In this document: positions 49,278-64,000 of the stretch, piece by piece
Position numbering within the stretch: the stretch's first letter is position 1
Layout of the letters: each line of letters opens with the position of its first letter
From: Streptomyces sp. 840.1
Lineage (GTDB): Bacteria; Actinomycetota; Actinomycetes; Streptomycetales; Streptomycetaceae
Length of the DNA: 64,000 nt
Direction: 5' to 3'
Assembly (NCBI RefSeq): GCF_003751445.1
Contig: NZ_RJUU01000001.1
Coordinates: 625,001 to 689,000, forward strand
Position numbers and translations under genes: made by a program
The notes under the pieces: generated by a model
Told to the model about the DNA's origin: nothing
Databases searched by the model: none
The model's input: the letters and a program-made list of their open reading frames with translations, nothing else

Positions 49278-50033
49278 TCAGTTCCAGGCGTTGTTCTGGT
49301 TCTGGGCGTGGACCCCCTGCTGCCCCATGCCGAACTGGGCGGCCAGCCCCTGGCCGATCTGGGCGCTCTGCGGCGGCAGCACCTCACTCGGCTGGACCAG
49401 TGCGAAGCCCTGCCCGAGGAAGCTGAGCTCCCAGCCCTCTCCGGTGTTGCCGCGTCGGCGCATGACGCCCGAGGAGTGCGTCTGGGCCTGCATCTGCACG
49501 CGCAGCGAGCTGGACCAGGCGACCACGGCGTCCGCGTCGGCGTTGACGTACTTGTCGGGCGTGACCTGCATCATCAGGGGCTGGCCGGAGGTCATCAGGG
49601 CGACCTTGCCGCTGCCCGAGATGTTGAGCTGGTACTTGCCGGTGCCCGAGATGCCGTACTGGCTGTCCACCGCGATGACCTCGGTGTGCAGTGACGAGTC
49701 GAGCGCCAGGACGTAGGCGCTGTCCACCGTCATGCCGTCGCGGTCGACATCCACCACGTGGACGTACTGCGCCAGGTTGGCGAGATAGACGGTGCCCTGG
49801 CCCGAGCACCGCATCAGCTCGAGGCCCTCACCGGTGCTGGCGCGGGCCCGGCGCTGTCCGTGCGACTGGTACTCGCCGTCGAACTCCATGAGCCCCTGGT
49901 AGGCGACCATGGCGCCCTTGCGGGCCAGGACGTCGTCGCGGCCGGTCAGCGAGACCCGCAGGAGCTGCGGATTCTGGACCGTGTACCGGTCCTGGGACTG
50001 CTGTTCCGTGTAGCTGAAGAGCGGACTCTGCAT
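49278..50033 (-). CDS. AIM24-family protein (third gene of AIM24 operon)
   Basis: A 251-residue AIM24-family beta-rich protein. Family features are VLARKGAMVAYQGLMEFDGE, GEGLELMRCSGQGTVYLANL, DADAVVAWSSSLRVQMQAQT and GEGWELSFLGQGFALVQPSE. The Gln/Asn-rich C-terminus is low complexity. AIM24 was named for a yeast mitochondrial protein; bacterial function is unknown. It starts 19 bases after the middle paralogue and is closed by the palindromic terminator. Confidence 0.9.
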   Translation of the reverse strand: MQSPLFSYTEQQSQDRYTVQNPQLLRVSLTGRDDVLARKGAMVAYQGLMEFDGEYQSHGQRRARASTGEGLELMRCSGQGTVYLANLAQYVHVVDVDRDGMTVDSAYVLALDSSLHTEVIAVDSQYGISGTGKYQLNISGSGKVALMTSGQPLMMQVTPDKYVNADADAVVAWSSSLRVQMQAQTHSSGVMRRRGNTGEGWELSFLGQGFALVQPSEVLPPQSAQIGQGLAAQFGMGQQGVHAQNQNNAWN

Positions 50034-50052
50034 GGTGTGTTCTCCCTCCCCG

Positions 50053-50733
50053 TCAGTTCCGGACCCGCAGGCGGTCGGTACTGTCCTCGCTCGGCTGGAC
50101 GACGACGATCCCCTGGCCGGAGAAGGCCATCTGGAACGCCTCTCCGCTGCCCCGCCCGATGAGCGAGGAGGCCTTGAAGCTGCGCTTGCCCTTCACCTTG
50201 AGGTTCGGGGACCACGCCACCAGCGCGTCCGGGTCGACGTACGTCTCGTCCTCGCCGCGCCCGCAGTCCACGACGATCGGCGTGCCGCGGGAGGTGATGG
50301 CGACCCATCCGGTGCCCGAGATGCAGACGTTCCAGAGGCCCTGGCCGGCGAACTTGGCGAGCCCCTTGACCCGTTCGACACCCCAGGTGAGATGGGCGTC
50401 GAAGGCGAGGACGTTGGTGCCGTTGACCGAAAGGGAGTCGTTGTTGAGATTGATGACGACCACGTCCGCGCCGTAGTCGGCGAGGTAGAGCAGCCCGTCA
50501 CCGGCGCACTTCATCAGGGGCGTGCCCTCGCCGGTGATCCACTGCGAGGCCATCTGACGGACGGCGGGCGGATTGGGTTCGTACTGGACGAAGCCCTCGT
50601 ACGCCACCATCGAGCCGGTGCGCGCGTAGAGGTCCTGGCCGGTGGCCATGGCCACCTTCAGCATCGAATGGCCGTGGTTCGCCATCCGGGCCGTTACGGG
50701 TGTCGGGGCGTAGCCCGCGAGTTGCTGATTCAT
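50053..50733 (-). CDS. AIM24-family protein (second gene)
   Basis: A 226-residue paralogue of its neighbours, sharing the AIM24 core: DLYARTGSMVAYEGFVQYEP, GEGTPLMKCAGDGLLYLADY, DPDALVAWSPNLKVKGKRSF and GEAFQMAFSGQGIVVVQPSE. The ATG at 50733 (MNQQLAGYAPTPV) lies 11 bases after the TerD-AIM24 stop with GGGAG upstream, so a longer reading is rejected. Function unknown. Confidence 0.9.
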   Translation of the reverse strand: MNQQLAGYAPTPVTARMANHGHSMLKVAMATGQDLYARTGSMVAYEGFVQYEPNPPAVRQMASQWITGEGTPLMKCAGDGLLYLADYGADVVVINLNNDSLSVNGTNVLAFDAHLTWGVERVKGLAKFAGQGLWNVCISGTGWVAITSRGTPIVVDCGRGEDETYVDPDALVAWSPNLKVKGKRSFKASSLIGRGSGEAFQMAFSGQGIVVVQPSEDSTDRLRVRN

Positions 50734-50744
50734 GACGGGCTCCC

Positions 50745-52361
50745 TCAGACCTCGTAGGGCTGGACGACGATGAAGTTGCCGGGTGCGCCCCGGAACTGGA
50801 GGTTCACGGTCTCCCCGCTGTGCCCGGGGTAGGCGTTGCGGCGCAGCCGGACCTGGCTGGAGACGATCACCTGGGACGCCGAAGACCACGCCACGACGGC
50901 GTTGCAGTCGGCGAAGGTGGTCGGGGTGACCGGCAGGACGACCGGCACACCGTGGGTCTTGACGACGACGGTGCCGGTGCCCTGGAACTGCATGGTGAAC
51001 AGGGCGCCGCCGGGGATGCCGTGGCCCTCGATCCTGCGGACCTCGTGCTGCAGCGACTCGTCGAAGGCGAGGACGTTCTCTGCGGAGACGCAGATGCCGT
51101 CGCCCTGGAGTTCGACGGAGTGCAGGTGGGAGCCGTCCTCGGCGAGGAAGACCTGCCCCCGGCCGGTGCAGCGCATCAGCTGCATTTCCTGACCGGTCGC
51201 GTTGCCGACGATCCGGCCGGCGAAACCGGCGCCCTTGTAGCCGAAGTCGACCTTGCCCTGGTACATCACCATGCTGCCCTGCCTGGCCAGCACTCCCCCA
51301 CCGCCGTTGGTGAGGTCGACCCGCATGAGCTGCTGGTTCTGCGAGGTCCAGCGCTGGCCGGTGGCCGTCTCCTTGTACGGCTGGAGCGCGGCCAGGAGCC
51401 CCGCCCCGGCAGGCGGCACCCCTTGCGGCACGCCCTGGGGCATGCCTGGCGGCTGCTGTCCGTACGGAGCCGCAGCAGGCTGGCCGTACGGGGCGGGGGC
51501 CTGCTGCCCGTAGGGCGCGGGAGCCTGTCCCGGGACCTGCCCGAACTGCGACTGCTGGGGCGGCTGCCCCGGCTGTCCGTACGGAGCGGGCGGAGGCGGA
51601 GGCGGCGGGGGCACGCTGCCGCCCTGCGGTGCCAGCGGCGCGACGATGGTGGGCGCGGCGTGCATCTGCTGCTGCGGGGTGGGCGCGGGTGCGGCCGGTC
51701 CGCCGAAGGACGGTGCGGGCTGCGGGACCTGCGGTGCGGCCGGGGCGCCGAACGCCGGAGGGGCCGCCGCGGCCTGTGCGGGCGGGGCGAAGGACGGGGC
51801 TGCGGACTGCGGCTGCGGAGCCGCCGGCTCCTCCTCGGCGACCTCGCCGCCGAAGTTCTTCAGCAGCGCGTCGAGTCCGCCGTCGAAGCCCTGGCCGACA
51901 GCGGCGAACCGCCAGACGTCCTTCAGGTAGAAGTCACCCAGCATCACCGCACGCTCGGTGGTGAACTCCGAGCCGGTGAAGGCGTACCTGACGACTTCCT
52001 CGCCGCCCGCGACGATCCGGATGTAACCGGGGCCGACCTGCGCCATCTGTCCGGCACCGTCCAGCGTGGCGGTGAACGACAGTTTGTGGATGCTCGCCGG
52101 AATGCGGTCCAGAGTCACACGGAACGACTCGGTGTCACCGGCCTGGGCGCCCAGGAGCTGAATGGACTCCTCGGGCGATTTCGGCTGATTGAAGAAGATG
52201 AAATACCGGTCGTCGGAGAGCTGCTCATTGGCATCGAGGCCGAAACAGCTGATGTCAAAGGTCAGTCCCGGGCCGGCGATCTGCACACCTACGTACAGGT
52301 CCGTCCCCGGTGTGAGATCGCTGATCTTGGCCTTGTGGCCGCGTTGGAATTCCCTGGCCAT
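50745..52361 (-). CDS. TerD domain-AIM24 domain fusion protein
   Basis: 538 residues in three parts: a TerD-type domain (about 1-180; LTFDISCFGLDANEQLSDDR, GDTESFRVTLDRIPASIHKL, AVMLGDFYLKDVWRF), a Pro/Ala/Gln linker (about 180-330) with repeated APYGQ units, and a C-terminal AIM24 domain (about 335-538; VLARQGSMVMYQGKVDFGYK and GETVNLQFRGAPGNFIVVQP). TerD domains bind calcium and belong to tellurite/stress systems, and the Asp-rich motifs (GLDANEQLSDD) are present. First gene of the three-gene AIM24 operon; a YgjP-like gene lies 108 bases upstream. Confidence 0.9.
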   Translation of the reverse strand: MAREFQRGHKAKISDLTPGTDLYVGVQIAGPGLTFDISCFGLDANEQLSDDRYFIFFNQPKSPEESIQLLGAQAGDTESFRVTLDRIPASIHKLSFTATLDGAGQMAQVGPGYIRIVAGGEEVVRYAFTGSEFTTERAVMLGDFYLKDVWRFAAVGQGFDGGLDALLKNFGGEVAEEEPAAPQPQSAAPSFAPPAQAAAAPPAFGAPAAPQVPQPAPSFGGPAAPAPTPQQQMHAAPTIVAPLAPQGGSVPPPPPPPPAPYGQPGQPPQQSQFGQVPGQAPAPYGQQAPAPYGQPAAAPYGQQPPGMPQGVPQGVPPAGAGLLAALQPYKETATGQRWTSQNQQLMRVDLTNGGGGVLARQGSMVMYQGKVDFGYKGAGFAGRIVGNATGQEMQLMRCTGRGQVFLAEDGSHLHSVELQGDGICVSAENVLAFDESLQHEVRRIEGHGIPGGALFTMQFQGTGTVVVKTHGVPVVLPVTPTTFADCNAVVAWSSASQVIVSSQVRLRRNAYPGHSGETVNLQFRGAPGNFIVVQPYEV

Positions 52362-52469
52362 GCGTAACGACCGTCCCCCATCCGGAAAGCTGAATGCGTC
52401 GCGTCAGGCTAACCGCAAAGTCCTGCCCCGGACCAAGCCGGTACAGACCCGGTACACAACCGCCGGACG

Positions 52470-53093
52470 TCACTCGCCCCGCGCGGCGGGCAGATGCGGC
52501 AGCCGGTCCGCGGCCACCACCCCTTCGAGATAGCCGCGCGCCCGCTCGGTACGGGGATAGGCGTCCAGGAGCCGCCAGAACCGCGGACCGTGTCCGGGCA
52601 CCAGGAGATGGGCCAGTTCGTGGACCAGCACGTAGTCGACGACGTACTCCGGCATGCCCTGCAGCCGGTGCGACAGACGGATGCTGCCCTCGGCCGGGGT
52701 GCAGGACCCCCACCGGGTGTTCTGGTTGGTCACCCACCGGACGGAGACGGGTCTGGCCCGGCCGTCGAAGTACTGCGCGGACAGCCGCTCCGCCCGTTCG
52801 GCGAGTTCGCTGTCACCGAGGATCCGTCTGCTCTCCTGGGCGGCCAGTTTGTCGAGCATGACGCTCACCCAGCGCTGTTCCTCGGCCTCGGACATCCGGG
52901 CGGGGATCAGCACGATCGTGCGGTCGCCCTCCCGGTACGCGGAGACCGTTCTGCTGCGGCGGGAACTCCTGCGGACCTCGACCGCGCTCGTCGTCGAGCC
53001 GCGGGGCGGATGGTCTGCCGCGCTGCGCTGCTGGATTCCGGCGCTGCGCGCGGGGGTCTCCCCGGCGAAGCCGGGCGACGGGTCGGCGGGCAC
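52470..53093 (-). CDS. YgjP-like M48-type metallopeptidase domain protein
   Basis: About 207 residues. The zinc site is VHELAHLLVPGHGPRFWRLL with the HExxH and a downstream His, and the family-specific NTRWGSCTPAEGSIRLSHRL precedes it; this is the YgjP/DUF45 (SprT-related) pattern. An Arg/Ser-rich N-terminal tail of about 55 residues may not all be translated: the GTG at 53093 has no Shine-Dalgarno and later starts are possible. Substrate unknown. Divergent from the ThiF-like gene. Confidence 0.85.
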   Translation of the reverse strand: MPADPSPGFAGETPARSAGIQQRSAADHPPRGSTTSAVEVRRSSRRSRTVSAYREGDRTIVLIPARMSEAEEQRWVSVMLDKLAAQESRRILGDSELAERAERLSAQYFDGRARPVSVRWVTNQNTRWGSCTPAEGSIRLSHRLQGMPEYVVDYVLVHELAHLLVPGHGPRFWRLLDAYPRTERARGYLEGVVAADRLPHLPAARGE

Positions 53094-53308
53094 GGCACGA
53101 CGTTACCCGTTGCCGGTGGGGGAAGTCCCGTCTCCCGAACGGTTCACACATGATCCGCCCCGCGGCGTGCACCGTTTGAACGACTAATACCCCCCGCCTG
53201 TGGATAACTTTCCACCCGCATCTGCGGCCCTGTGCATTCTGGCAATGGATCTCGCGCAGACGCACGGACCGCACACAGATCACGCACAGACACCGACCGG
53301 GGGAAACC

Positions 53309-54487
53309 ATGCATCCGATGTTGAAGCCCGCGTTGCGCCGCGCATGGCGCGGCAGCGGCACCGTCCAATTCGGCGTGACGCCCGCCCATGCGGTGAAGGT
53401 CGGCCCGATGGACCTCGCGACCGGCAGTTTCCTGGAGCTCCTCGACGGAACACGCGGGATGCCGCTGCTGCACGAAGAGGCCAGGGCGCTGGATCTCACC
53501 GAACACCACGTGGACACCCTCGTCATGCGCCTGCTGGACGCGGGACTCATCGACGACGTGAGGGCCGGCGGCCCGGAAGCCGATGCGTTACGGAACCGGG
53601 CGGAGGCCATGGAGCGTCACCGGCCCGATCTGGCGTCCCTCTCCGTCGTGCATCCCGAGCCCGGCGGCGGGATGCGCCGGATGGCCGCCCGCCGCTCCAT
53701 GCGCGTCCAGGTCCGGGGGGCCGGCCGGGTGGGTGCGGCCGTCGCCGCGGTGCTTTCCGGCTCCGGGGTGGGGCACGTCGAGGTCCTGGACGGCGGCACC
53801 GCCGAGCCGGGTGACGTCTCGCCCGGGGGTCTGCCACCGTCGGCGGCGGGAGAGCGCCGGGACACCTCGGCCCGGCAGTTGGTCCGGCGCTCGGCTCCCG
53901 GCCCGGCGCGGCGGACGGCCCAGCCGCCGGGCCTGCCGGCGAGCGGCGAGCCCGGACTGTCGCTGATCGTGGTGGCCCCTCGTGAGAGCCTCTCCGCCTA
54001 CATCCCCGATCCGCGCACCGCCGAGCCGTGGATCGCCTCGGGCACACCCCACCTCTACGCCGGAGTCATCGAGGCCACCGGCTTCGTCGGACCGCTGGTA
54101 CTGCCGGGCGGCACGGCGTGCGCGGGATGCCTCGATCTGCACCGGCGCGACCGGGACCCGCAGTGGCCCCGGATGCTGGCCCAGTGGCAGTCCGGGCGGC
54201 GCACCGCCGTACAGGCCTGCGACCTGGGCCTGGCTACCGCGGTGGCGGGTCTGGCCGCCGCCCACGCGCTGTCCTTCCTCGACGGGGAACTGCCCGCCTG
54301 CACCGGGTCCCGGTGGGAAGCCGCGCTGCCGCTGTTGGACTGGCGGTCGGAGCCGATCCGGGCACACCTCGACTGTTCCTGCAGAGCGGGTGGGCACACT
54401 GAGGGGTGCGCACCTCCGGGGCCGGCACGGCGCACGACACAATGGCCGGGTAGCCGCCGCACGGCAGTCTGGGATTTGGAGGGGTTT
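53309..54487 (+). CDS. ThiF/cyclodehydratase-like protein, in frame with downstream ABC1 gene
   Basis: About 393 codons that resemble the E1-like C component of azoline-forming RiPP cyclodehydratases. The N-terminal ~90 residues look like a winged-helix RiPP-recognition-type domain (KVGPMDLATGSFLELLDGTR, then a helical EHHVDTLVMRLLDAGLIDD). A Rossmann core follows with VRGAGRVGAAVAAVLSGSGV, then a tetracysteine zinc site (CAGCLDLH and DCSCRAGG). No YcaO partner or precursor peptide was found nearby. It has no stop of its own: the frame continues through the ATG at 54488 to 55930. GTG/ATG at 53309 follows the GGGGG of the leader. Confidence 0.75.
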
Positions 54488-55930
54488 ATGTCTGATCTTC
54501 CCCGGAAGGCGGTCACCCGAACCGCCAAGCTGGCAGCGCTGCCTTTGGGGTTCGCGGGCCGCGCCACGTGGGGGCTGGGCAAGCGCATCGGCGGGAAGTC
54601 CGCGGAGCTGGTCGCCCGCGAGGTACAGCAGCGCACCGCCGACCAGCTCTTCAAGGTCCTGGGCGAGCTGAAGGGCGGGGCGATGAAGCTCGGACAGGCG
54701 CTGTCCGTCTTCGAGTCCGCCCTCCCCGAAGAGGTCGCCGGTCCCTACCGCGCGGCCCTCACCAAGCTGCAGGAGGCCGCCCCTCCGATGCCGAGCAGCA
54801 CGGTCCACGCGGTGCTGGCCGAGCGTCTCGGCCAGGACTGGCGGGACCTTTTCCTGACCTTCGAGGACAAACCGTCGGCCGCCGCCTCGATCGGGCAGGT
54901 GCACCGGGCGGTGTGGCACGACGGGCGCAACGTCGCGGTGAAGGTGCAGTACCCGGGAGCCGGGGAGGCGCTGCTCTCTGACCTGACCCAGCTCAGCCGG
55001 TTCGCCCGGCTGCTGGGCCCGCTGATTCCGGGCATGGACATCAAGCCGCTGATCACGGAGCTCCGTGACCGGGTGTCGGAGGAGCTGGACTACGAGCAGG
55101 AGGCGCAGTCGCAGCGCGAGCACGCCGAAGAGTTCGCGGACGATCCCGATGTCGTGGTGCCGGGCGTGGTCCACCAGTCCGATCAGGTGCTGGTCACGGA
55201 GTGGATCGACGGGGTGCCGCTGGCCGATGTGATCGCCGACGGAACCGCTGAGCAGCGCGACCGGGCCGGACAGCTGCTGGCCCGGTTCCTCTTCTCCGGC
55301 CCCGCGCGCACCGGGCTGCTGCACGCGGACCCGCACCCCGGCAACTTCCGGCTGCTGCCGCCGGACGCGGCCTGCACGGCTGACAACGACGGTGCGACGG
55401 CCCCCGGGGCTGATCATTGGCGGCTCGGTGTCCTCGACTTCGGAACGGTGGACCGGCTGCCGGGCGGGCTTCCGCAGACCATCGGGGACTCGTTGCGTCT
55501 CACGCTCCAGGGCGACGCGGACGCGGTGTACGCGCTGTTGCGCGAGGAGGGGTTCGTCAAGGACTCGATCGACCTCGCTCCGGACGCGGTGCTCGACTAC
55601 CTCCAGCCGATCATTGAACCCGCCCTGGTGGAGGAGTTCGCGTTCAGCCGGGGCTGGATGCGCAGTCAGGCCGCCCGGATAGCGGATCCGCGTTCGCCCG
55701 CCCACCAGTTGGGCAAGCAGTTGAATCTGCCGCCTGCCTATCTGCTCATACACCGTGTGACGTTGAGCACGATCGGGGTGCTGTGCCAGCTCGGCGCGAC
55801 GGTCCGGCTGCGCGACGAACTCGAGTCCTGGCTCCCGGGGTTCCTGCCGCAGGAAGAGGAGGGGTGGGCTGCGCAGGAGTGGGCCGAGGAGGAGCTGCCC
55901 GGGGAAGCGGCGTCCGAGCTCGCCACATAG
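54488..55930 (+). CDS. ABC1/AarF/UbiB-family atypical kinase
   Basis: About 480 residues of the ABC1/ADCK family. The KxGQ motif is KGGAMKLGQALSVFESALPE; the Ala-rich loop is DKPSAAASIGQVHRAVWHDG; the catalytic region is LLHADPHPGNFRLLPPD, and DFG is in LGVLDFGTVDRLPGG. The family acts as ATPase/kinase-like factors in isoprenoid lipid metabolism. ATG at 54488 has TTGGAGGGG three bases upstream, strong evidence for separate initiation. It lies in the same open frame as the ThiF-like region, so an 873-residue fusion is also possible. Confidence 0.9.
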   Translation: MSDLPRKAVTRTAKLAALPLGFAGRATWGLGKRIGGKSAELVAREVQQRTADQLFKVLGELKGGAMKLGQALSVFESALPEEVAGPYRAALTKLQEAAPPMPSSTVHAVLAERLGQDWRDLFLTFEDKPSAAASIGQVHRAVWHDGRNVAVKVQYPGAGEALLSDLTQLSRFARLLGPLIPGMDIKPLITELRDRVSEELDYEQEAQSQREHAEEFADDPDVVVPGVVHQSDQVLVTEWIDGVPLADVIADGTAEQRDRAGQLLARFLFSGPARTGLLHADPHPGNFRLLPPDAACTADNDGATAPGADHWRLGVLDFGTVDRLPGGLPQTIGDSLRLTLQGDADAVYALLREEGFVKDSIDLAPDAVLDYLQPIIEPALVEEFAFSRGWMRSQAARIADPRSPAHQLGKQLNLPPAYLLIHRVTLSTIGVLCQLGATVRLRDELESWLPGFLPQEEEGWAAQEWAEEELPGEAASELAT

Positions 55931-55937
55931 CGGCCGC

Positions 55938-56150
55938 TCACCACCAGTCGGAGCCGAGCCGGCCCTCGATGGCTCGGATGTGGGTGCGGGCGCAGTTGTC
56001 GCAGAAGTAGCGCCGGCTGCCGTGCTCCACGGAACAGAGCCAGGTCGGCGGTGCGCTGTCGCTCCCCGATCCGGTACCGCACAGGGCGCATACGACGCCC
56101 GCGCCGCTCTGCGCGCCCGCTGCTTCGGGGCGCTGGGTCTCCTCGTCCAC
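55938..56150 (-). CDS. Small zinc-ribbon-like protein
   Basis: About 70 residues with two CxxC pairs (VVCALCGTG and YFCDNCARTHIRA) plus a further Cys in TWLCSVEHGSRR, likely one zinc site. The C-terminal RAIEGRLGSDWW is conserved in recalled homologues. The GTG at 56150 has GGGAG immediately before it; a longer reading from 56195 is less likely. Convergent with the ABC1 kinase gene, eight bases apart. Function unknown. Confidence 0.78.
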   Translation of the reverse strand: MDEETQRPEAAGAQSGAGVVCALCGTGSGSDSAPPTWLCSVEHGSRRYFCDNCARTHIRAIEGRLGSDWW

Positions 56151-56201
56151 CTCCCGACGATATCTCCACCGGCCTGGTCCGGCACGGCACCACACAGCAC
56201 G

Positions 56202-56237
56202 GCCTCGGGGCCGGTCCGCGTGGACCGGCCCCGAGGC
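56202..56237. terminator. Hairpin terminator between the two small genes
   Basis: A perfect 16-base stem (56202-56217 with 56222-56237) and a GCGT loop, downstream of the small basic protein gene on the minus strand. Confidence 0.85.
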
Positions 56238-56321
56238 AGGGGTGGTGATGTGGGTGCTGGGTACTGCGCGCTGCGGGTCGGAGAGCGGCTGCCCCGCAGC
56301 GGTAGTGCTGACCTTCTGTCA

Positions 56322-56351
56322 TGCGGTGTTCTGTCCTGCGGTGTTCTGTCC
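56322..56351. repeat. 15-base tandem repeat
   Basis: TGCGGTGTTCTGTCC occurs twice in a row (56322-56336 and 56337-56351), just beyond the stop of the small basic protein gene. Confidence 0.9.
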
Positions 56352-56357
56352 TGCTCC

Positions 56358-56621
56358 TCAGTGCATGACCGCCATGGCCAGCGCACGCCGGGCACGCATC
56401 GAGGCGCGCTCGGCCCGGCGCTGCATCCGCCGCGCGTTGATCAGGCGCACGGCCTGACGATCCGCGTCGGCTTCCCGCAGGCGGTCGTGCATATGAGCAC
56501 GAGCCAGGGCTTCTGGGATGAGTTGCATCTCACGGGTCCTGTTCTGACGCGAGTCGTTCGCGCCGATGATGGTGACGTCCGGTGTCGCGGAGCCGACGGG
56601 CTCCCTCGTGGGGATGGTCAT
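56358..56621 (-). CDS. Small basic protein, unknown
   Basis: About 87 residues. The C-terminal 50 residues are helical and Arg-rich (RRMQRRAERASMRARRALAM), suggesting nucleic-acid or membrane association. ATG at 56621 has AGGA four bases upstream; an ATG at 56681 (MKRIGTIDRPQTHDP) would give 107 residues but has no Shine-Dalgarno. It lies 92 bases after the wblC stop on the same strand and may be co-transcribed with wblC. No family recognised. Confidence 0.65.
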   Translation of the reverse strand: MTIPTREPVGSATPDVTIIGANDSRQNRTREMQLIPEALARAHMHDRLREADADRQAVRLINARRMQRRAERASMRARRALAMAVMH

Positions 56622-56713
56622 TGGTTCCTGGTTTCGCGGGTCGTGGGTCTGGGGACGGTCGATGGTTCCGATGCGCTTCATGGGTTTGGGGGCCGCAGCT
56701 CCCAGGCCGGCGA

Positions 56714-57082
56714 TCACGCCGCGACCGGGTTCTTGCGCGGACGGCCACGCGGCCGCTTGCGAGCAACGACGACGCCCTGGATGAAGAGCTCGCCACCCCA
56801 GACACCCCACGGCTCGCGGCGCTCCTTGGCGCCGGCGAGGCAGGCCTCGACGAGCGGGCAGGTGCGGCAGAGGGACTTGGCGTACTCGACGTCGGCCGGG
56901 GACTCGGCGAAGAAGACCTCGGGGTCGTAGGAGCGGCAGGGGACGGGTACGCCAAGGTTCTCGATGGCGTCGTCGAGCGCGGTGAGCGCAGTGAGCGGGA
57001 TCAAGGTGGAGTCCTCCGTGAGGCCGGGCGGGGGGATCGTTTCGGAAGGCGGGACGGACGGGGCGTGCGCTTCGAGTTGCAC
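56714..57082 (-). CDS. wblC: WhiB-family regulator WblC (WhiB7-type)
   Basis: A 122-residue iron-sulfur WhiB protein of the WhiB7 branch, which activates intrinsic antibiotic-resistance genes with the principal sigma factor. Four Cys are in place (VPCRSYDPEVFF and LCRTCPLVEACLAGA), followed by GVWGGELFI and the WhiB7-specific AT-hook KRPRGRPRKNP at the C-terminus. GTG at 57082 follows GAGG at a long distance. The gene has a leader of about 600 bases with an upstream ORF and an intrinsic terminator, and is convergent with nothing; the small basic gene follows. Confidence 0.95.
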   Translation of the reverse strand: MQLEAHAPSVPPSETIPPPGLTEDSTLIPLTALTALDDAIENLGVPVPCRSYDPEVFFAESPADVEYAKSLCRTCPLVEACLAGAKERREPWGVWGGELFIQGVVVARKRPRGRPRKNPVAA

Positions 57083-57185
57083 GGTGGTGGTGTCCTCGTC
57101 TGGTCGTTTCCGGCCTGTTGGCCGGGGGCGGCTGGTACCAGGTGTTACTTGTCCCGAGGCTCCTTCGCGCTGTCCCGTCCGTTCG

Positions 57186-57231
57186 GACAAAACAAAAGGG
57201 CCGCGGATCCCGAGTGGGGTTCCGCGGCCCT
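57186..57231 (-). terminator. Intrinsic attenuator in the wblC leader
   Basis: On the minus strand AGGGCCGCGGA (57231-57221) pairs with TCCGCGGCCCT (57207-57197), followed by TTTTGTTTTGT (to 57186): a classic stem plus U-tract, rare in this genome. It lies about 100 bases before wblC and 24 bases after the upstream ORF stop. Confidence 0.93.
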
Positions 57232-57254
57232 GAAGGCGCCGGCCTGACTGTCGA

Positions 57255-57590
57255 TCAGGCTGGATCTCTCCAGGGTTCAGGCCCACGGAAGGCCCACATC
57301 GTGTGGTGGTGCGTCGTCTGCTTCTTGGCTCCGGCTTCCGCTCCCGCACCGACGGCCGCAAAGGCATAGGCCTGGGCCTGTCCCTTCGCTACTGCTGCTG
57401 CCGGTGCCTGGGTCGGTCGCTCATTACGCTCCCGCTCGGGAAGGCTCACCAGGGACAGCGGGCTGACGGCGGAAATGCCGGACATACCGGTGCCACGCAG
57501 GGAAGACGTCGAAGAGTGGGCGAGGCCGAGCGAGCAGGCGGAGACGACCGAGAGATCGGTCATTTTGTTGGTCTCGATGATGTTGATCAC
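57255..57590 (-). CDS. Upstream ORF in the wblC leader (candidate regulatory peptide)
   Basis: A GTG at 57590 with GGAGG eight bases upstream opens a 111-codon ORF (VINIIETNKMTDLS...); an ATG at 57563 (MTDLSVVSACSLGLAHSS) is an alternative. It is Ser/Ala-rich, with KKQTTHHHTMWAF near the end, and stops 24 bases before the attenuator hairpin. The position fits ribosome-mediated attenuation described for whiB7/wblC leaders, in which slow translation prevents terminator formation. A GCCTGA/TCAGGC hairpin overlaps its stop. Whether the peptide itself matters is unknown. Confidence 0.55.
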   Translation of the reverse strand: MINIIETNKMTDLSVVSACSLGLAHSSTSSLRGTGMSGISAVSPLSLVSLPERERNERPTQAPAAAVAKGQAQAYAFAAVGAGAEAGAKKQTTHHHTMWAFRGPEPWRDPA

Positions 57591-57705
57591 TTCAATCGCC
57601 TCCTCTCGGCGTCTAGAGCGGACCGACCGAGCCGGTCCTACGTATTCGGATAAGTACAGCACAGGATCAGGGCTTCAGAGAAGTCGCTGTTCCCGTGGTT
57701 AAGAA

Positions 57706-57745
57706 CCTATGGTGATTACTGGGGCAGGCGCAAACTATTTTTTCG
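57706..57745 (-). promoter_or_regulatory. Probable wblC promoter with WhiB7-type AT-rich element
   Basis: On the minus strand an AT-rich GAAAAAATAG (57745-57735) directly precedes a -35-like TTTGCG (57734-57729), a 17-base spacer and a -10-like CATAGG (57711-57706). WhiB7-family activators bind AT-rich DNA just upstream of the -35 of their own promoter. Confidence 0.65.
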
Positions 57746-57756
57746 ACGAGTTTTTC

Positions 57757-59946
57757 TCACACCTGCTCGTCGGCCTCCGCAGGCTCCTCCGCCCCGTCCC
57801 CACCTGCGCAGATGTCCAGCACCGCGGCTCCGAACCGGCCCAGCTTCCGCGCGCCGACCCCGGGGATCCCGGCCAGCTCGCCCTCGCTGCCGGGCACGGC
57901 CTCCGCGATGGCCATCAGCGTCTTGTCGGTGAACACGCAGTAGGCGGGCTGGCTGATCTCCTGCGCCCGGACCGCACGCCAGTCGCGCAGCCTCTCGTAC
58001 AGCGCCTCGTCCATGTCGGACGGGCAGTCGTCACAGCGCATCAGCTTCATCTCGCCCGCGTCGGTGAGGGTCTTGCCGCACACCCTGCACAGCGCGGGCC
58101 CGCGCCGCTTGCGCCGGGCCGCCACCGGCCGCTCGATGCCGCCGCTGCCGCCCGCGGTGCCCCTGGCGCCCAGCGCCGCCGAGCCGGGACGCAGTCCGTT
58201 CAGGAAGCGGCTCGGGCGGCGGCCGGCCCGGCCGCCGGGCGAGCGGGCCAGCGACCACGAGAGCGAGAGGTGGAAGCGTGCCCGGGTGACACCGACGTAC
58301 AGCAGCCGGCGCTCCTCCTCGATCTGCTCGTCCGTCTTGGCGTAGGTGATCGGCATCATGCCCTCGGTCAGTCCGACCAGGAACACGGCATCCCACTCCA
58401 GGCCCTTCGCGGAGTGCAGCGAGGCCAGGGTGACGCCCTGGACCGTGGGGGCGTGCTGGGCGGCGGCCCGCTCGTCCAGTTCGGCGACCAGGTCGGAGAG
58501 GGTCGCGCCCGGCCTGGCCCGCTCGAAGTCCTCGGCGAGCCTGACCAGTGCGGCCAGGGACTCCCAGCGGTCGCGCACCGCCCCGGAGCCGGCCGGCGGC
58601 TCGCTCCGCCAGCCCTTGGTGGACAGCACAGCGCGGACCTCGGCGGGCAGCCCCTGCGCATCGTCGAGCAGGGAGTCGTTGCCGCCGGCGCGGGCCGCGC
58701 CGCGCAGGGCGACGCCCGCTTCCCGTACCTCCGCGCGTTCGAAGAACCGCTCGGCGCCCCTCAGCTGGTACGGCACCCCCGCGTCGGCCAGGGCCTGCTC
58801 GTAGACCTCGGACTGGGAGTTGACCCGGTAGAGCACCGCGATCTCGCCCGCCGGGACGCCTGCCGCGATCAGGTCGCGGATGCGGCGGGCGGTGCCCTCG
58901 GCCTCGGCGGGCTCGTCCGCGTACTCCGTGTAGGCGGGCTCGGGACCGCGCTCGCGCTGCGAGACCAGTTCGAGCCGGTGCTCGGCGGCCCTGCCCCGGG
59001 CCTGGCCGAGCAGCCCGTTGGCCAGGTGGACCACCTGGGGCGTCGAGCGGTAGTCCCGGACGAGCTTGACGACGGTGGCCCGGGGGTGGCGGGTGCGGAA
59101 GTTCAGCAGGTGGTCGGGGGTGGCTCCGGTGAAGGAGTAGATCGTCTGGCTGGCGTCACCGACGACGCAGAGGTTGTCCCGGTCGCCCAGCCAGAGGTCG
59201 AGCAGCCGCTGCTGGAGCGGGCTGACGTCCTGGTACTCGTCGACGACGAAGTGCTGGTACTGCCGGCGCACGTGGTCGGCGATGTCGTGCCGGTCCTGGA
59301 GGATGCCCACGGTCAGGAGCAGCACGTCCTCGAAGTCGATCACCGTCCGGTCCCGCTTCAGCTGCTCGTACGTCGCGTAGACCTGTGAGATCTCGGCGGG
59401 ATCGCGCGGGGCGTCCCGCTGGGACTTGGCGACCACGGCCGGGTAGTCGGCCGGCACGGTCTGGGTGACCTTGGCCCACTCGATCTCGCTCGTGACATCG
59501 CGCAGCTCGTTGCGGTCGAGGCGGATGTTGCAGCGGGCCGCGGCCTCGGCCACCAGCTGGACCTTGCGCTCCAGCAGCCTGGGCAGATCGCCACCGACTG
59601 CTTTCGGCCAGAAGTACTGGAGCTGGCGCAGGGCCGCGGAGTGGAACGTGCGCGCCTGCACCCCGCCCGCTCCGAGCTGGCGCAGCCGTCCCCGCATCTC
59701 GCCGGCGGCACGGTTGGTGAACGTGACGGCGAGCACACTCGTCGGCTGGATGATCCCGGCGCGCACCCCGTAGGCGATGCGGTGCGTGATGGCCCGCGTC
59801 TTGCCCGTACCGGCCCCGGCCAGCACGCATACCGGGCCCTGCAGGGCCATGGCGACCTCGCGCTGCTCGGGGTCGAGCCCGTCGAGGACGGCGTCGGCGG
59901 AGTCGGGGACCTGAGGGAAGAGGGTGGAATGCGTTGCTGATGTCAC
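57757..59946 (-). CDS. uvrD2: ATP-dependent DNA helicase UvrD2
   Basis: A 729-residue superfamily 1A helicase. Walker A is LAGAGTGKTRAITHRIAYG; motif II is FVVDEYQDVSPLQQRLLD; motif IV-VI elements include LASLHSAKGLEWDAVFLVGL and RRLLYVGVTRARFHL. The C-terminus has a tetracysteine zinc element (CRVCGKTL and CDDCP) and an HRDC domain (FTDKTLMAIAEAVPGSEGEL), the combination diagnostic of actinobacterial UvrD2. GTG at 59946 follows GGCGGG; the longer reading overlaps the mycoredoxin promoter side and is rejected. Confidence 0.95.
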   Translation of the reverse strand: MTSATHSTLFPQVPDSADAVLDGLDPEQREVAMALQGPVCVLAGAGTGKTRAITHRIAYGVRAGIIQPTSVLAVTFTNRAAGEMRGRLRQLGAGGVQARTFHSAALRQLQYFWPKAVGGDLPRLLERKVQLVAEAAARCNIRLDRNELRDVTSEIEWAKVTQTVPADYPAVVAKSQRDAPRDPAEISQVYATYEQLKRDRTVIDFEDVLLLTVGILQDRHDIADHVRRQYQHFVVDEYQDVSPLQQRLLDLWLGDRDNLCVVGDASQTIYSFTGATPDHLLNFRTRHPRATVVKLVRDYRSTPQVVHLANGLLGQARGRAAEHRLELVSQRERGPEPAYTEYADEPAEAEGTARRIRDLIAAGVPAGEIAVLYRVNSQSEVYEQALADAGVPYQLRGAERFFERAEVREAGVALRGAARAGGNDSLLDDAQGLPAEVRAVLSTKGWRSEPPAGSGAVRDRWESLAALVRLAEDFERARPGATLSDLVAELDERAAAQHAPTVQGVTLASLHSAKGLEWDAVFLVGLTEGMMPITYAKTDEQIEEERRLLYVGVTRARFHLSLSWSLARSPGGRAGRRPSRFLNGLRPGSAALGARGTAGGSGGIERPVAARRKRRGPALCRVCGKTLTDAGEMKLMRCDDCPSDMDEALYERLRDWRAVRAQEISQPAYCVFTDKTLMAIAEAVPGSEGELAGIPGVGARKLGRFGAAVLDICAGGDGAEEPAEADEQV

Positions 59947-60086
59947 CCCGCCATGCTGCCAGGTCGAAAGGGGCGGACGCGGAAGTTGTCCACAGGGGTG
60001 CCGCATCTGTCGTACTGGTCGTACTGGTCGCACTGATCGCGACCGGCGCCTGGAGCGCTGCCGGGATCGGCGCCGGGCGCGCTGCC

Positions 60087-60113
60087 GGGAATGGTGGACA
60101 GGTCACGTACGTT
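60087..60113 (+). promoter_or_regulatory. SigR-dependent promoter of mycoredoxin gene
   Basis: GGGAAT (60087-60092), an 18-base spacer and GTT (60111-60113) match the SigR consensus exactly. It lies about 180 bases upstream of the mycoredoxin ATG. Confidence 0.9.
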
Positions 60114-60291
60114 CCCCTGTCGTGCGGCAACGCACGTCCCGGATCTCGGGGCCTTTGCGCGTGCCACCCGATGCCTGACGCCCGCCGTGAACCACGCGGC
60201 GGGTGGTGTGCGGAGTGTGGAGTGTGACGGAGGAGACGGGACGGGATGTGGCGGGATTGCCGGGACCGATGAGACAGAGGAGCGCGTAGAC

Positions 60292-60534
60292 ATGCCGGGC
60301 ACTGTGACGATGTACAGCACCACGTGGTGCGGATACTGCCGTCGGCTCAAGGGCCAGATGGACCGCGAGGGCATCGCGTACACCGAGATCAACATCGAGC
60401 ACGACCCGGACTCCGCGGCCTTCGTCGAGAAGGCGAACGGCGGGAACCAGACGGTCCCGACCGTTCTCTTCCCGGACGGTTCGACGCTGACGAATCCCTC
60501 GCTGGCCCAGGTGAAGCAGAAGGTCGGCGCCTGA
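60292..60534 (+). CDS. Mycoredoxin (glutaredoxin-like, Mrx1-type)
   Basis: An 80-residue glutaredoxin-fold protein that reduces mycothiol mixed disulfides. The active site is TTWCGYCRRLKGQMDREGI (CxxC near residues 13-16), and the conserved TVPTVLFPDGSTLTNPS supplies the cis-Pro. ATG at 60292 after AGAGGAG; longer upstream readings run into the SigR promoter. SigR control fits the thiol-stress role. Divergent from uvrD2 and followed by a terminator. Confidence 0.94.
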   Translation: MPGTVTMYSTTWCGYCRRLKGQMDREGIAYTEINIEHDPDSAAFVEKANGGNQTVPTVLFPDGSTLTNPSLAQVKQKVGA

Positions 60535-60561
60535 CCCCGCCGAGCCCCACCCCGAGCGCGC

Positions 60562-60605
60562 CCGCCCGCCGCTTCCGGTCGACACGGACCGGAAGCGGCG
60601 GGCGG
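60562..60605. terminator. Terminator after mycoredoxin
   Basis: A perfect 19-base stem (60562-60580 with 60587-60605) and a 6-base loop. Confidence 0.9.
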
Positions 60606-60620
60606 CTGTGTGCCTGCATC

Positions 60621-60698
60621 AGTTCAGGAAAGTCAGTTCAGTAAGGCCGGTTCAGGAAAGCCGGCTCAGGAAAGCCGGCTGAGGAAGATCAGCTCAGG
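60621..60698. repeat. Degenerate 14-15-base tandem repeat, about 5.5 copies
   Basis: Successive units (AGTTCAGGAAAGTC, AGTTCAGTAAGGCCG, GTTCAGGAAAGCCG, GCTCAGGAAAGCCG, GCTGAGGAAGATCA, GCTCAGG) fill the gap between the mycoredoxin terminator and the folD 3' end. The last unit reaches the folD stop. Confidence 0.85.
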
Positions 60699-61549
60699 CC
60701 TAGTTGGCGGGACGCCGCCGCAACCGTCTGTTCGAGGAGGACGGCGATGGTCATCGGGCCGACACCTCCGGGGACCGGGGTGATCAGGCTCGCGTGCTCG
60801 GCGGCTGTCTCGAAATCGACGTCACCGACGTTGCCCTCGTTGTAGCCCGCGTCGATCACCACCGCGCCCGGCTTGATGTCGGCACCGGTGATGAAGCGCG
60901 GCCGGCCGACCGCGACGACCAGGGCGTCCGCCTGCCGCACGATCGCGGAGAGGTCGGCGGTGTGCGAGTGGCAGTACGTCACTGTGGCGTTGCGCCCCAG
61001 CAGGAGCATCCCGGCGGGCTTGCCCAGGATGGCGCTGCGTCCCACGACCACCGCGTGCTTGCCCGCGAGGTCGACCTCGTACGCGTCGAGCAGCCGCATG
61101 ATGCCGCCCGGGGTGCAGGAGACGAATCCGGGGAGGCCGAAACCCATCGCCGCGAAGGCGTGCATGGTGACGCCGTCGACGTCCTTCTCCGGGGCGATCG
61201 CCTCGAAGGCGGCCCGTTCGTCGATGTGCGGGCCCATCGGGTGCTGCAGCAGGATGCCGTGTACGCCCGGGTCCTTCGACAGGGTGGTCACCGCGGCGAC
61301 CACGTCCTCGGTGGTGGAGTCGGCCGGAAGTGCCACGTGCCGGGACTCGATGCCCGCCCGCGCACACCGGTTGCGCTTCATCTTGACGTACGTCACCGAG
61401 GACGGGTCCTCACCGACGAGGACGGTGGCCAGGCAGGGCGGGGTTCCGGTGCGCAGCCGGATCTCCGCGGCCGCGGCCGTGGTCTCCTCGACGCTTCGGC
61501 GGGCGAGGCCCGTGCCGTCCATCAGCTGAGCCGTCTGGGTCGCGTTCAC
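60689..61549 (-). CDS. folD: Methylenetetrahydrofolate dehydrogenase/cyclohydrolase FolD
   Basis: A 286-residue bifunctional enzyme interconverting 5,10-methylene- and 10-formyl-tetrahydrofolate. The catalytic Tyr-Lys pattern is in SVTYVKMKRNRCA; HGILLQHPMGP, KDVDGVTMHAF, VVVGRSAILGKPAGMLL (cofactor) and PVPGGVGPMTIAVLLEQT are all canonical. GTG at 61549 follows AGGAG by six bases, so the long N-terminal reading is rejected. The next gene upstream on the strand is nudC. Confidence 0.95.
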   Translation of the reverse strand: MNATQTAQLMDGTGLARRSVEETTAAAAEIRLRTGTPPCLATVLVGEDPSSVTYVKMKRNRCARAGIESRHVALPADSTTEDVVAAVTTLSKDPGVHGILLQHPMGPHIDERAAFEAIAPEKDVDGVTMHAFAAMGFGLPGFVSCTPGGIMRLLDAYEVDLAGKHAVVVGRSAILGKPAGMLLLGRNATVTYCHSHTADLSAIVRQADALVVAVGRPRFITGADIKPGAVVIDAGYNEGNVGDVDFETAAEHASLITPVPGGVGPMTIAVLLEQTVAAASRQLGLS

Positions 61550-61808
61550 TGGTACTCCTGGGCGCTCGGGCGATCGCGTCGGCCACCGGGGCCGCGAGGG
61601 ATCGCGGATCGTGGTCGGTCGCCCAGGCGCACGGCTTCGGCAGCCCCATGGACTGCCGGTGTTCTCTGCGGCCGCTCCCCGGTGGTGCTCCACCTCAGCG
61701 CCAGTCACGGCCCGCGTCCACTGTAGAGCCACGCGAACGGGCCCGGGGAGCGCGGGCCGCGCTCCCCGGCTCGCGTTCCCGCTCCGGTGCCGGCTGCTCG
61801 CTCCGGTG

Positions 61809-62753
61809 TCAGCCGGCGCTGCGCGGCCTCGGGAGGGGCTTGCCGTACCAGATCTCGATCAGCCGGGCGGCGATCGAGATGCCGAACGGGGGCAGGATCT
61901 CGCCGGACTCGAAGGCGGCGGTCAGCTCCTCGCGGGAGAACCAGCGCGCCTCCTCGATCTCCTCGCCGTCGACGTTGATGTCGAACGTCGTGGCCCGTGC
62001 CATGAAGCCGAGCATCAGGCTGGACGGGAAGGGCCAGGGCTGGCTGGCGACGTACTCCACCTCGCCCACCGTGATGCCGGCTTCCTCGAACACCTCGCGC
62101 GCCACGGACTGCTCGATCGATTCGCCCGGCTCGACGAATCCGGCCAGGGTCGAGAAGCGGCCCTCGGGCCAGTGGACCTGGCGGCCCAGCAGGGCGCGGT
62201 CCTGGTCGTCGGTGACGAGCATGATGACCGCGGGGTCGGTGCGGGGGTAGTGCTCCGCACCGCAGGCCTGGCAGCGGCGGATGTGTCCGGCCGCCGCGAT
62301 GACCGTGCGTTCGCCGCAGCGGGAGCAGAAGCGGTGCAGCCGCTGCCAGTTCTCCAGCGCCACCGCGTGCACCATCAGACCGGCGTCGCGGGCGCCGAGG
62401 AGCAGGCCCGCCTCGCGGAGCCCGGCGGGACGGGCCGACTGGTCCATGCGGCCGGGCAGCGAGTCCTTCTGGAGGGCGAAGTAGCTGACGCCGTCCTCGT
62501 CGGTGCCGAGGAAGTAGCGGTGGGTCTCGGTGACGGGCGCCTCGAAAGCGGGGGTCATCACGAGTTCGGTGCCGTCGGCGGTGTCGTCGATCAGCACCTG
62601 CCCGCCGGAGACGACGAAGACCCGGGTCGTCGGGTGACTCCATGCGGCGGCCAGCCAGGCCTCGTCGAGGCGGTGGTGCGCGGCGCGGTCGATGCCGCTG
62701 GGCGCGGTCAGGCCGATGGGCCGGTCGGTGGTGGCGTTGTCGAAGGTGCTCAC
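61809..62753 (-). CDS. nudC: NAD(+) diphosphatase NudC
   Basis: A 314-residue NADH pyrophosphatase/RNA deNADding enzyme. An N-terminal domain is followed by a zinc site (CSRCGERT and CQACGAEHYPRTDP), the Nudix box GFVEPGESIEQSVAREVFEE with EAGI, and the NudC-specific SQPWPFPSSLMLGF. GTG at 62753. It lies between folD and the M20 dipeptidase on the same strand, 44 bases after the dipeptidase stop. Confidence 0.95.
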   Translation of the reverse strand: MSTFDNATTDRPIGLTAPSGIDRAAHHRLDEAWLAAAWSHPTTRVFVVSGGQVLIDDTADGTELVMTPAFEAPVTETHRYFLGTDEDGVSYFALQKDSLPGRMDQSARPAGLREAGLLLGARDAGLMVHAVALENWQRLHRFCSRCGERTVIAAAGHIRRCQACGAEHYPRTDPAVIMLVTDDQDRALLGRQVHWPEGRFSTLAGFVEPGESIEQSVAREVFEEAGITVGEVEYVASQPWPFPSSLMLGFMARATTFDINVDGEEIEEARWFSREELTAAFESGEILPPFGISIAARLIEIWYGKPLPRPRSAG

Positions 62754-62797
62754 AGGTGCTTCCTACTCCCCCGGGATGGATCGGGTGTTCAGAGGAT

Positions 62798-64000
62798 TCA
62801 GCGGAGTGCGGCCGCCAGTTCGCTCCAGAGGTGGGCGGTGGTCTCCACGCCCTTGAGCAGCAGGTCGAGTTCGACCTTCTCGTTGGGGGCGTGCCAGCCG
62901 TCGGACGGTACGGAGATGCCGAGGAAGAGGACGGGGGCGCCGAGCACGTCCTGCAGGTCGGCGGCGGGTCCCGAGCCTCCTTCGCGGGTGAAGAGGATCT
63001 TCTTGCCGAAGGCCCGTCCCATGGCGCGGGCGACGGCCTGGAGGGCGGGGTGGTCCAGCGGGGTGAGGCAGGGGCGGGTGGCGGGGAGGAAGGTGATCCG
63101 GTGGCCGATCCCGGCCGGGATGCGGGCCTCGGCCCAGGCCCGTACGGCGTCCTGGACGCGGTCCGGGTCCTGCCCCGCGACCAGGCGGAAGCTGATCTTG
63201 GCCAGGGCGGAGGACGGGATGATCGTCTTGCTTCCGGCGCCCTGGTAGCCGCCGCCGATGCCGTTGACCTCGGCGGTGGGGCGGGCCCAGATGCGCTCCA
63301 GGGTGGAGTAGCCGGCTTCTCCGGAGGCGGCCTGCGACCTGGCGGTGCGCAGCCAGGTGGCCTCGTCGAAGGGCAGTGCGGCGAAGAGCTCGCGTTCGGT
63401 CGTGGTCAGTTCGGCCACGCCGTCGTAGAAGCCGGGGACCGCGACCCGGCCGTCCTGGTCGTGGAGCGCCGCGACGAGCCGGGCGATCTCGGTCGCCGGG
63501 TTGGGGACCGCGCCGCCGAACGAGCCGGAGTGGATGTCCTGCCCGGGGCCGCGCAGCTCGATCTCGCACTCGGCCAGGCCGCGCATGCCCGTGCAGACGG
63601 TCGGGGTGGTCTCGTCCCACATGCCGGTGTCGGAGACGATCACGGCGTCCGCGGTGAGCCGGTCCGACCGCTGCTCGACCAGGGCGCGGAAGTGCGGGGA
63701 GCCCGACTCCTCCTCGCCCTCGACGAGGAGCTTGAGGTGCACGGCGGGGCTGGTGCGGCCGGTGGTGGCGAGGTGGGCCCGGACGCCGAGGGTATGGAAG
63801 AACACCTGTCCCTTGTCGTCGGCCGCGCCGCGCCCGTACATCCTGCCGTCCCGGATGACCGGCTCGAACGGCTCGGTGTCCCAGCCGTCCTCGCGGGCGG
63901 CGGGCTGCACGTCGTGGTGTCCGTACACCAGGACGGTCGGGGCGTCCGGATCCTCGGACGGCCACTCGGCGAAGACGGCGGGCGCACCGTCCGTCTCCCA
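62798..64000 (-). CDS. M20-family dipeptidase (5' end beyond window)
   Basis: At least 401 residues of a zinc-dependent M20/M28-type dipeptidase (CNDP/ArgE branch). First metal site is LVYGHHDVQP; the following WDTEPFEP and GRGAADDKGQVFFH carry the metal Asp; the catalytic Glu pair is LVEGEEESGSPHF; DTGMWDETTPT and HSGSFGGAVPNPATEI follow. The frame is open to base 64000 with no start in it that I would trust. Acts on small peptides; substrate not determinable. Confidence 0.93.
   Translation of the reverse strand, partial: WETDGAPAVFAEWPSEDPDAPTVLVYGHHDVQPAAREDGWDTEPFEPVIRDGRMYGRGAADDKGQVFFHTLGVRAHLATTGRTSPAVHLKLLVEGEEESGSPHFRALVEQRSDRLTADAVIVSDTGMWDETTPTVCTGMRGLAECEIELRGPGQDIHSGSFGGAVPNPATEIARLVAALHDQDGRVAVPGFYDGVAELTTTERELFAALPFDEATWLRTARSQAASGEAGYSTLERIWARPTAEVNGIGGGYQGAGSKTIIPSSALAKISFRLVAGQDPDRVQDAVRAWAEARIPAGIGHRITFLPATRPCLTPLDHPALQAVARAMGRAFGKKILFTREGGSGPAADLQDVLGAPVLFLGISVPSDGWHAPNEKVELDLLLKGVETTAHLWSELAAALR

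Follow-up and report, generated by a model that had tools for sequence, protein, structure and literature searches.

Locus of wblC and its leader

The window, the whole 64,000-nucleotide stretch of DNA analysed here, carries wblC on its minus strand, preceded by a leader with its own promoter and an upstream open reading frame (uORF). The features of this region are, in the direction of transcription:

57704..57742, minus strand: WblC-type promoter, with box AAAAAT (57742-57737), -35 element TTGCGC (57733-57728) and -10 element TAGGTT (57709-57704)
57599..57604, minus strand: Shine-Dalgarno sequence AGGAGG of the uORF, eight bases before the GTG
57255..57590, minus strand: uORF with GTG start at 57590 and stop codon ending at 57255; 111 residues, all 20 amino acids present
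57303..57311, minus strand: His triplet CACCACCAC within the uORF
56714..57082, minus strand: wblC, a WhiB-family transcription factor of 122 residues (Pfam WhiB, E 1.8e-14)

The promoter follows immediately on the stop codon of a gene for a UvrD-type helicase (ORF 60033-57757, minus strand). Its -35 and -10 elements are separated by 18 nt, and the AAAAAT box, 3 nt upstream of the -35 element, agrees in five of six letters with the WblC box GAAAWY, a published motif (PMC7157823). An AT-rich WhiB7-type promoter, an ORF at 57590-57255 with a good ribosome binding site and a downstream wblC gene had all been proposed in a first-pass annotation of this DNA and were confirmed. The wblC gene is the single strong match in the genome, nine others being weaker Wbl-like matches. 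Searches of Pfam and NCBIfam revealed no match for the uORF peptide, and an Rfam search of positions 50000-64000 gave no family for the wblC leader. Elsewhere in the window, a ZTP riboswitch (Rfam RF01750, 45.6 bits, 61614-61718, minus strand) lies 5' of a tetrahydrofolate dehydrogenase/cyclohydrolase (FolD-type) gene and downstream of a NUDIX gene, which is an ordinary arrangement.

Ribosome-mediated attenuation of wblC/whiB7 was described by Lee, Lee & Roe (2022), as reported in papers citing that work (PMC11550727, PMC9618640, PMC10727445, PMC13393426, PMC12421871, PMC7157823, PMC12121999). According to these papers, translation of the uORF to its end allows the terminator to form and wblC is off; when antibiotics or amino-acid starvation block translation of the uORF, formation of an antiterminator permits transcription of wblC. 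Such induction, by translation inhibitors as well as by starvation, is reported there for S. coelicolor. The translation-coupled attenuation suggested in the first-pass annotation is right in the light of these citing papers and had already been published.

A search of 199 genomes of the genus detected wblC at E <= 1e-30 in 197 and the uORF protein at E <= 1e-3 likewise in 197. The same two genomes (G116 and G135) lacked both matches, so wblC and its leader seem to have been lost together. In total, 216 distinct leaders were gathered at the levels of genus, family and class. Within the Streptomycetaceae the uORF was identified by similarity in 162 of 170 leaders (length 88 to 171 residues, median 108), and the remaining eight have diverged uORFs picked by rule. 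Outside the homologous set, a rule combining Shine-Dalgarno sequence and position picked a uORF in 51 of 54 leaders; some of these are likely errors that were kept in the counts (L275 resembles helicase sequence and L261 looks like a reading in the wrong frame). Of 15 relatives at order level that lie outside the genus, seven (G534, G535, G538, G539, G544, G546 and G547) have a WblC match that reads through one in-frame TGA; the gene may simply be shorter there, with the match extending beyond its stop.

Terminator, antiterminator and the uORF end

The RNA features at the 3' end of the leader are:

57268..57275, minus strand: predicted 5' strand of the antiterminator, CCCTGGAG, formed by uORF codons P106 and W107 and the first two bases of codon 108
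57260..57273, minus strand: small hairpin CTGGA-GAGA-TCCAG with a GNRA-type loop, a candidate competitor of the antiterminator
57242..57260, minus strand: hairpin that spans the uORF stop codon and forms the inner part of the predicted antiterminator, pairing GCCTGA (57260-57255) with TCAGGC (57247-57242)
57228..57235, minus strand: predicted 3' strand of the antiterminator, CTTCAGGG, whose GGG (57230-57228) forms the base of the terminator stem
57188..57230, minus strand: intrinsic terminator with stem 57230-57198 and U-tract TTTTGTTTTG (57197-57188)

For positions 57234-57186 the predicted folding energy is -30.2 kcal/mol (z -5.67), and none of 200 shuffled sequences folded as well, in agreement with the intrinsic terminator and true U-tract noticed on first reading. 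A simple scan with a consensus for terminators did not list the structure at 57230-57188.

At the level of predicted pairing, the conserved antiterminator is one long hairpin with the outer helix CCCTGGAG:CTTCAGGG and an inner helix spanning the uORF stop codon. All eight outer pairs are present in 147 of 162 leaders, and 98.8% of cells are paired; shifting the helix by one base in either direction lowers this to 65.0% and 69.8%. In the window the outer helix has a predicted energy of -11.6 kcal/mol as a duplex and -26.7 kcal/mol together with the hairpin it encloses. The predicted energies are thereby -26.7 kcal/mol for the antiterminator (57275-57228) and -28.0 kcal/mol for the terminator stem; the GGG at 57230-57228 is the sole part common to both. 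The first-pass annotation had proposed a different pairing, GGCCTGAA (57283-57276) with TTCAGGGCC (57234-57226). This duplex can form in the window (-9.4 kcal/mol) but is weaker there than CCCTGGAG:CTTCAGGG, and as a conserved antiterminator it did not hold: only 29 of 162 leaders have all of its pairs, and 82.5% of cells are paired.

As the 3' ends were not lined up in the MAFFT alignment (A1), the stop-codon hairpin alone was counted on it, and a script scored the outer helix in each sequence separately. Among 36 distinct thinned sequences the stop-codon hairpin has 97.2% of cells paired, and four of its seven pairs have changed on both sides, compared with 0.5 in shuffles (0/500 as high); the count of further pair types is less striking and was matched by 37 of 500 shuffles. 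In a thinned set the outer helix displayed no significant covariation (28 complete versus 27.7 in shuffles), since the 5' strand is at the same time constrained as codons. These last codons of the uORF are under synonymous constraint and scarcely vary in nucleotide sequence. At codon 106, 160 of 162 uORFs have CCC, which accounts for 209 of 698 Pro codons elsewhere in the same uORFs; where codon 108 encodes Arg it is always AGA (43/43), a codon used for none of the 897 Arg residues elsewhere; and where codon 110 encodes Pro it is always CCA (147/147), found at 4 of 698 Pro positions elsewhere. The first-pass annotation had held that a lack of synonymous-rate depression in the ORF would speak against it; since the last codons are synonymously constrained, such a depression is present.

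The small hairpin, in the form CTGGA-GNGA-TCCAG, retains a GNRA loop and at least four of its five pairs in 131 of 162 leaders. Its overlap with the antiterminator strand could make the two structures competitors, and this competition might decide the fate of a leader that is not translated.

A plain search of the 114 leaders outside the homologous set detected a full 7-base counterpart of the outer helix in only 25, and the same search did not find it in leaders of mycobacteria, Rhodococcus or Amycolatopsis. Some leaders of other families have other complementary strands at the same place, for example CCTCGAG:CTCGAGG (L214), CCTTTGA:TCAAAGG (L229) and CCTCGAA:TTCGAGG (L293). Among the 51 rule-picked uORFs, 21 end in PPV, often as WSPPV or GPPV (class-level leaders such as L104, L106, L193, L199 and L200), and in those inspected the stop codon again lies within a hairpin.

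Amino-acid content of the uORF

Upstream of its last codons the uORF peptide drifts. Rough dN/dS values, from 600 of 870 pairs picked by protein identity, are 1.36 for residues 2-32, 0.53 for 33-57, 0.62 for 58-82, 1.32 for 83-101 and, over the final ten codons, 0.14. Near-invariant residues are R58, A82, R102, P106 and W107, and Ala makes up 24% of the middle third. The His triplet near the end of the ORF, singled out on first reading as worth testing, was rejected as a conserved feature: only 10 of 162 Streptomycetaceae uORFs have HHH, as do 9 of 69 held-out homologues. The last 35 residues are free of His in 12 of 162 uORFs, yet at least one His is found somewhere in all 162.

All 20 amino acids are present in 151 of 162 Streptomycetaceae uORFs, and the other 11 have 19; with the last ten codons ignored, 146 are still complete. 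Cys is absent from nine. In the uORF of the window, Cys19, Asp12, Tyr75 and Trp99 are each the single upstream residue of their kind. Segments of equal length from 37 ORFs of the window, chosen by codon composition, gave an expectation of 16.4 complete out of 162, and random peptides of the uORFs' own composition gave 38.5 (maximum 52). WblC itself is complete in 36 of 162 cases and the tail of the upstream gene in 12 of 147. A column-shuffle null that keeps local conservation gave 102.4 complete (maximum 113), a value that is too low because of misalignment. We also swapped three anchored segments between species, a procedure that is free of alignment and leaves out seven uORFs that could not be segmented. 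Here 144 of 155 uORFs were complete compared with a null of 107.1 (maximum 119 in 2000 shuffles); in thinned sets the numbers were 29 of 35 compared with a maximum of 27, and below 55% identity 12 of 15 compared with a maximum of 11. Taken as a statistical claim, these comparisons argue strongly for an excess of complete uORFs.

Several residues, when lost from their usual position, tend to be found elsewhere in the same peptide. Trp107, encoded within the antiterminator strand, is present in 162 of 162 uORFs, and 160 of them retain a second Trp before the last ten codons. A Trp further upstream is found in 28 of 30 uORFs that have lost W99, compared with 1 of 132 that have kept it. The corresponding counts, home site lost versus kept, with 'home' positions set after the alignment had been seen, are 16/17 versus 13/145 for Tyr, 17/17 versus 52/145 for His, 30/35 versus 58/127 for Asp, 4/13 versus 6/149 for Cys and 28/28 versus 116/134 for Met. 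Asn, Phe, Lys and Ile gave no relocation signal among the 162 uORFs, because these residues are usually present elsewhere anyway. On the WblC tree, which offers few independent pairs, the mean numbers of pairs going in opposite and same direction were 6.3 and 0.0 for Tyr (median p 0.031), 3.8 and 0.0 for His, 2.7 and 0.0 for Met, 1.6 and 0.0 for Trp, 1.2 and 0.1 for Cys, 1.5 and 1.5 for Asp, and 1.8 and 1.0 for the Glu control. Tyr alone reaches p < 0.05 in this test; Trp, His, Met and Cys show the same trend short of this threshold, and Asp shows no trend on the tree. Counted without the tree, the data argue strongly for replacement of lost Trp, Tyr and His.

The excess recurs beyond the set in which it was noticed. 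Held-out homologues from further genomes are complete in 67 of 69 cases and carry an upstream Trp in all 69. At order level, twelve loci gave no similarity match and had their uORFs picked by rule: three have no uORF, seven of the other nine are complete and two have 19 amino acids. Of the 51 rule-picked, diverged uORFs, 27 are complete compared with 4.0 expected and with 0/47 same-locus controls; these comprise 8/8 diverged Streptomycetaceae and 19/43 others. At least 19 amino acids are present in 43 of the 51, compared with 18.1 expected. Among 80 named loci, 69 have a uORF and 17 of these are complete (1.8 expected; controls 0/68). When these uORFs are divided by record title, all 17 belong to the 32 non-mycobacterial ones, for which a null of their own composition gave 2.8 (maximum 8). 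None of the 37 mycobacterial uORFs is complete (own-composition null 0.3); these whiB7 uORFs, from the set L230-L309, contain 28% Ala, and Cys is missing from 31 and Glu from 25 of 37, which sets them apart from those of other actinobacteria. At least one residue is missing from 24 of 43 class-level and 15 of 32 named non-mycobacterial uORFs outside the Streptomycetaceae. The shortest complete uORFs have 55 (a Pseudonocardia MAG), 63, 67 and 68 residues. Across the homologous set, the body of the uORF varies freely in sequence and length, but a full complement of 20 amino acids is retained before the predicted helix.

Interpretation and comparison with known attenuators

A ribosome at the stop codon would cover the antiterminator strands, and the terminator could therefore form. 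With the ribosome not yet arrived, the strands would be free and the antiterminator would take the GGG, which would otherwise make the bottom three pairs of the terminator, beside the U-tract. Shortage of any single charged tRNA, or a general block of elongation, would stop the ribosome before the end. Because the full residue set lies upstream of the helix, shortage of any charged tRNA would be expected to stop the ribosome early and to switch wblC on; we infer that the leader senses each charged tRNA. The last Cys lies a median of 86 codons before the stop and the full set is collected over a median of 85% of the uORF, so stalls far upstream must count if the set matters. Such a stall might also expose the RNA to Rho.

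We consider it probable that the leader is the ribosome-mediated transcription attenuator of wblC, built as a universal sensor of elongation. With slightly less confidence we favour a sensor coded by composition, in which the residue set and not the sequence would be selected, each amino acid would be translated before the antiterminator strand and any charged-tRNA shortage would induce the regulon; mycobacteria would have specialised on alanine and given up this generality. The title of Poulton 2024 reportedly concerns whiB7 and alanine starvation in mycobacteria, and the Ala-rich, incomplete mycobacterial uORFs fit with it.

The same title and the 28% Ala of the mycobacterial uORFs would also suit a specific sensor, which responds to stalls at His codons or within the Ala-rich stretch close to the 3' end and in which the remaining residues have no role of their own, as would the HHH of the window (57311-57303) and the Ala content of the middle third. 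We regard this as unlikely, since HHH is rare and scarce residues that are neither His nor Ala are retained and change place. Stalling of ribosomes by antibiotics in specific peptide contexts is established, and the leader is reported, in the citing papers, to respond to many translation inhibitors; the uORF might accordingly be varied because antibiotics stall in different contexts, with the complete set as a by-product. Preferred contexts would, however, favour repeated motifs and not single Cys, Trp or Tyr residues placed anywhere, and the invariant Trp107 does not substitute for the upstream Trp, which makes this explanation a little less likely still.

Composition, alignment or shared ancestry might also produce complete sets as an artefact, which we consider improbable. 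In favour of an artefact, the sequences are related, misalignment lowers the column-shuffle null and the tree-based tests are weak; against it, the alignment-free segment swap holds in sets thinned below 55% identity, the diverged uORFs of other families repeat the excess and composition-matched random peptides fall short of it. Least of all do we expect the uORF to encode a functional small protein from whose function its make-up follows. The match of the peptide in 197 of 199 genus genomes and its five near-invariant residues would agree with such a protein, but its end is invariant because of the RNA pairing, rough dN/dS reaches 1.36 (2-32) and 1.32 (83-101) compared with 0.14 in the last ten codons, its length varies from 88 to 171 residues and neither Pfam nor NCBIfam matches it.

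What looks new for the universal sensor favoured here is a peptide that usually holds all 20 amino acids, in streptomycetes and several other actinobacteria. A leader with the full set would account for the response of a single element to widely differing translation stresses, and this reading gives a sharp prediction for each residue. If true, evolution would here, unusually, have preserved an alphabet instead of a sequence, and a general reporter of translation stress could be designed along the same lines. In the open-access listings and passages searched, we met no statement of this amino-acid inventory. A 2025 paper on another antibiotic-sensing uORF describes stalling within the whiB7 uORF as untested and calls the starvation response intriguing (PMC12121999).

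Several known systems resemble the wblC leader. E. coli toiL is likewise a single uORF that answers several classes of ribosome-targeting antibiotics; it differs in gene and host, its stall sites vary with the antibiotic, and the passages seen of its report do not describe a complete amino-acid set (PMC12121999).

In classical leader-peptide attenuators (trp, his, ilv) the position of the ribosome selects antiterminator or terminator, a choice shared by the wblC leader. The classical leaders are short with clustered sensed codons, whereas that of wblC is long with at least one codon per amino acid. The ilvB1 leader has been given as a case of classical attenuation (PMC13236596).

Mycobacterial whiB7 leaders also place a uORF and a terminator before whiB7 (PMC4128351, PMC13236596), but their uORFs are shorter (median 64), contain 28% Ala and are never complete among the 37, and the plain search did not detect the Streptomycetaceae helix there. 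Closest is the whiB7/wblC attenuator of Actinobacteria itself, with the same gene, uORF, intrinsic terminator, antiterminator sharing uORF sequence, and induction by inhibitors and starvation (PMC11550727, PMC9618640, PMC10727445, PMC13393426). Its hallmarks are found at the present locus as judged from sequence: a WhiB7-type gene, a conserved uORF with its ribosome binding site, an intrinsic terminator and a predicted antiterminator formed from uORF and terminator sequence. To this attenuator, as described in the citing papers, our analysis adds the identity of the conserved pairing strands, a hairpin around the stop codon and the full amino-acid complement of the peptide.
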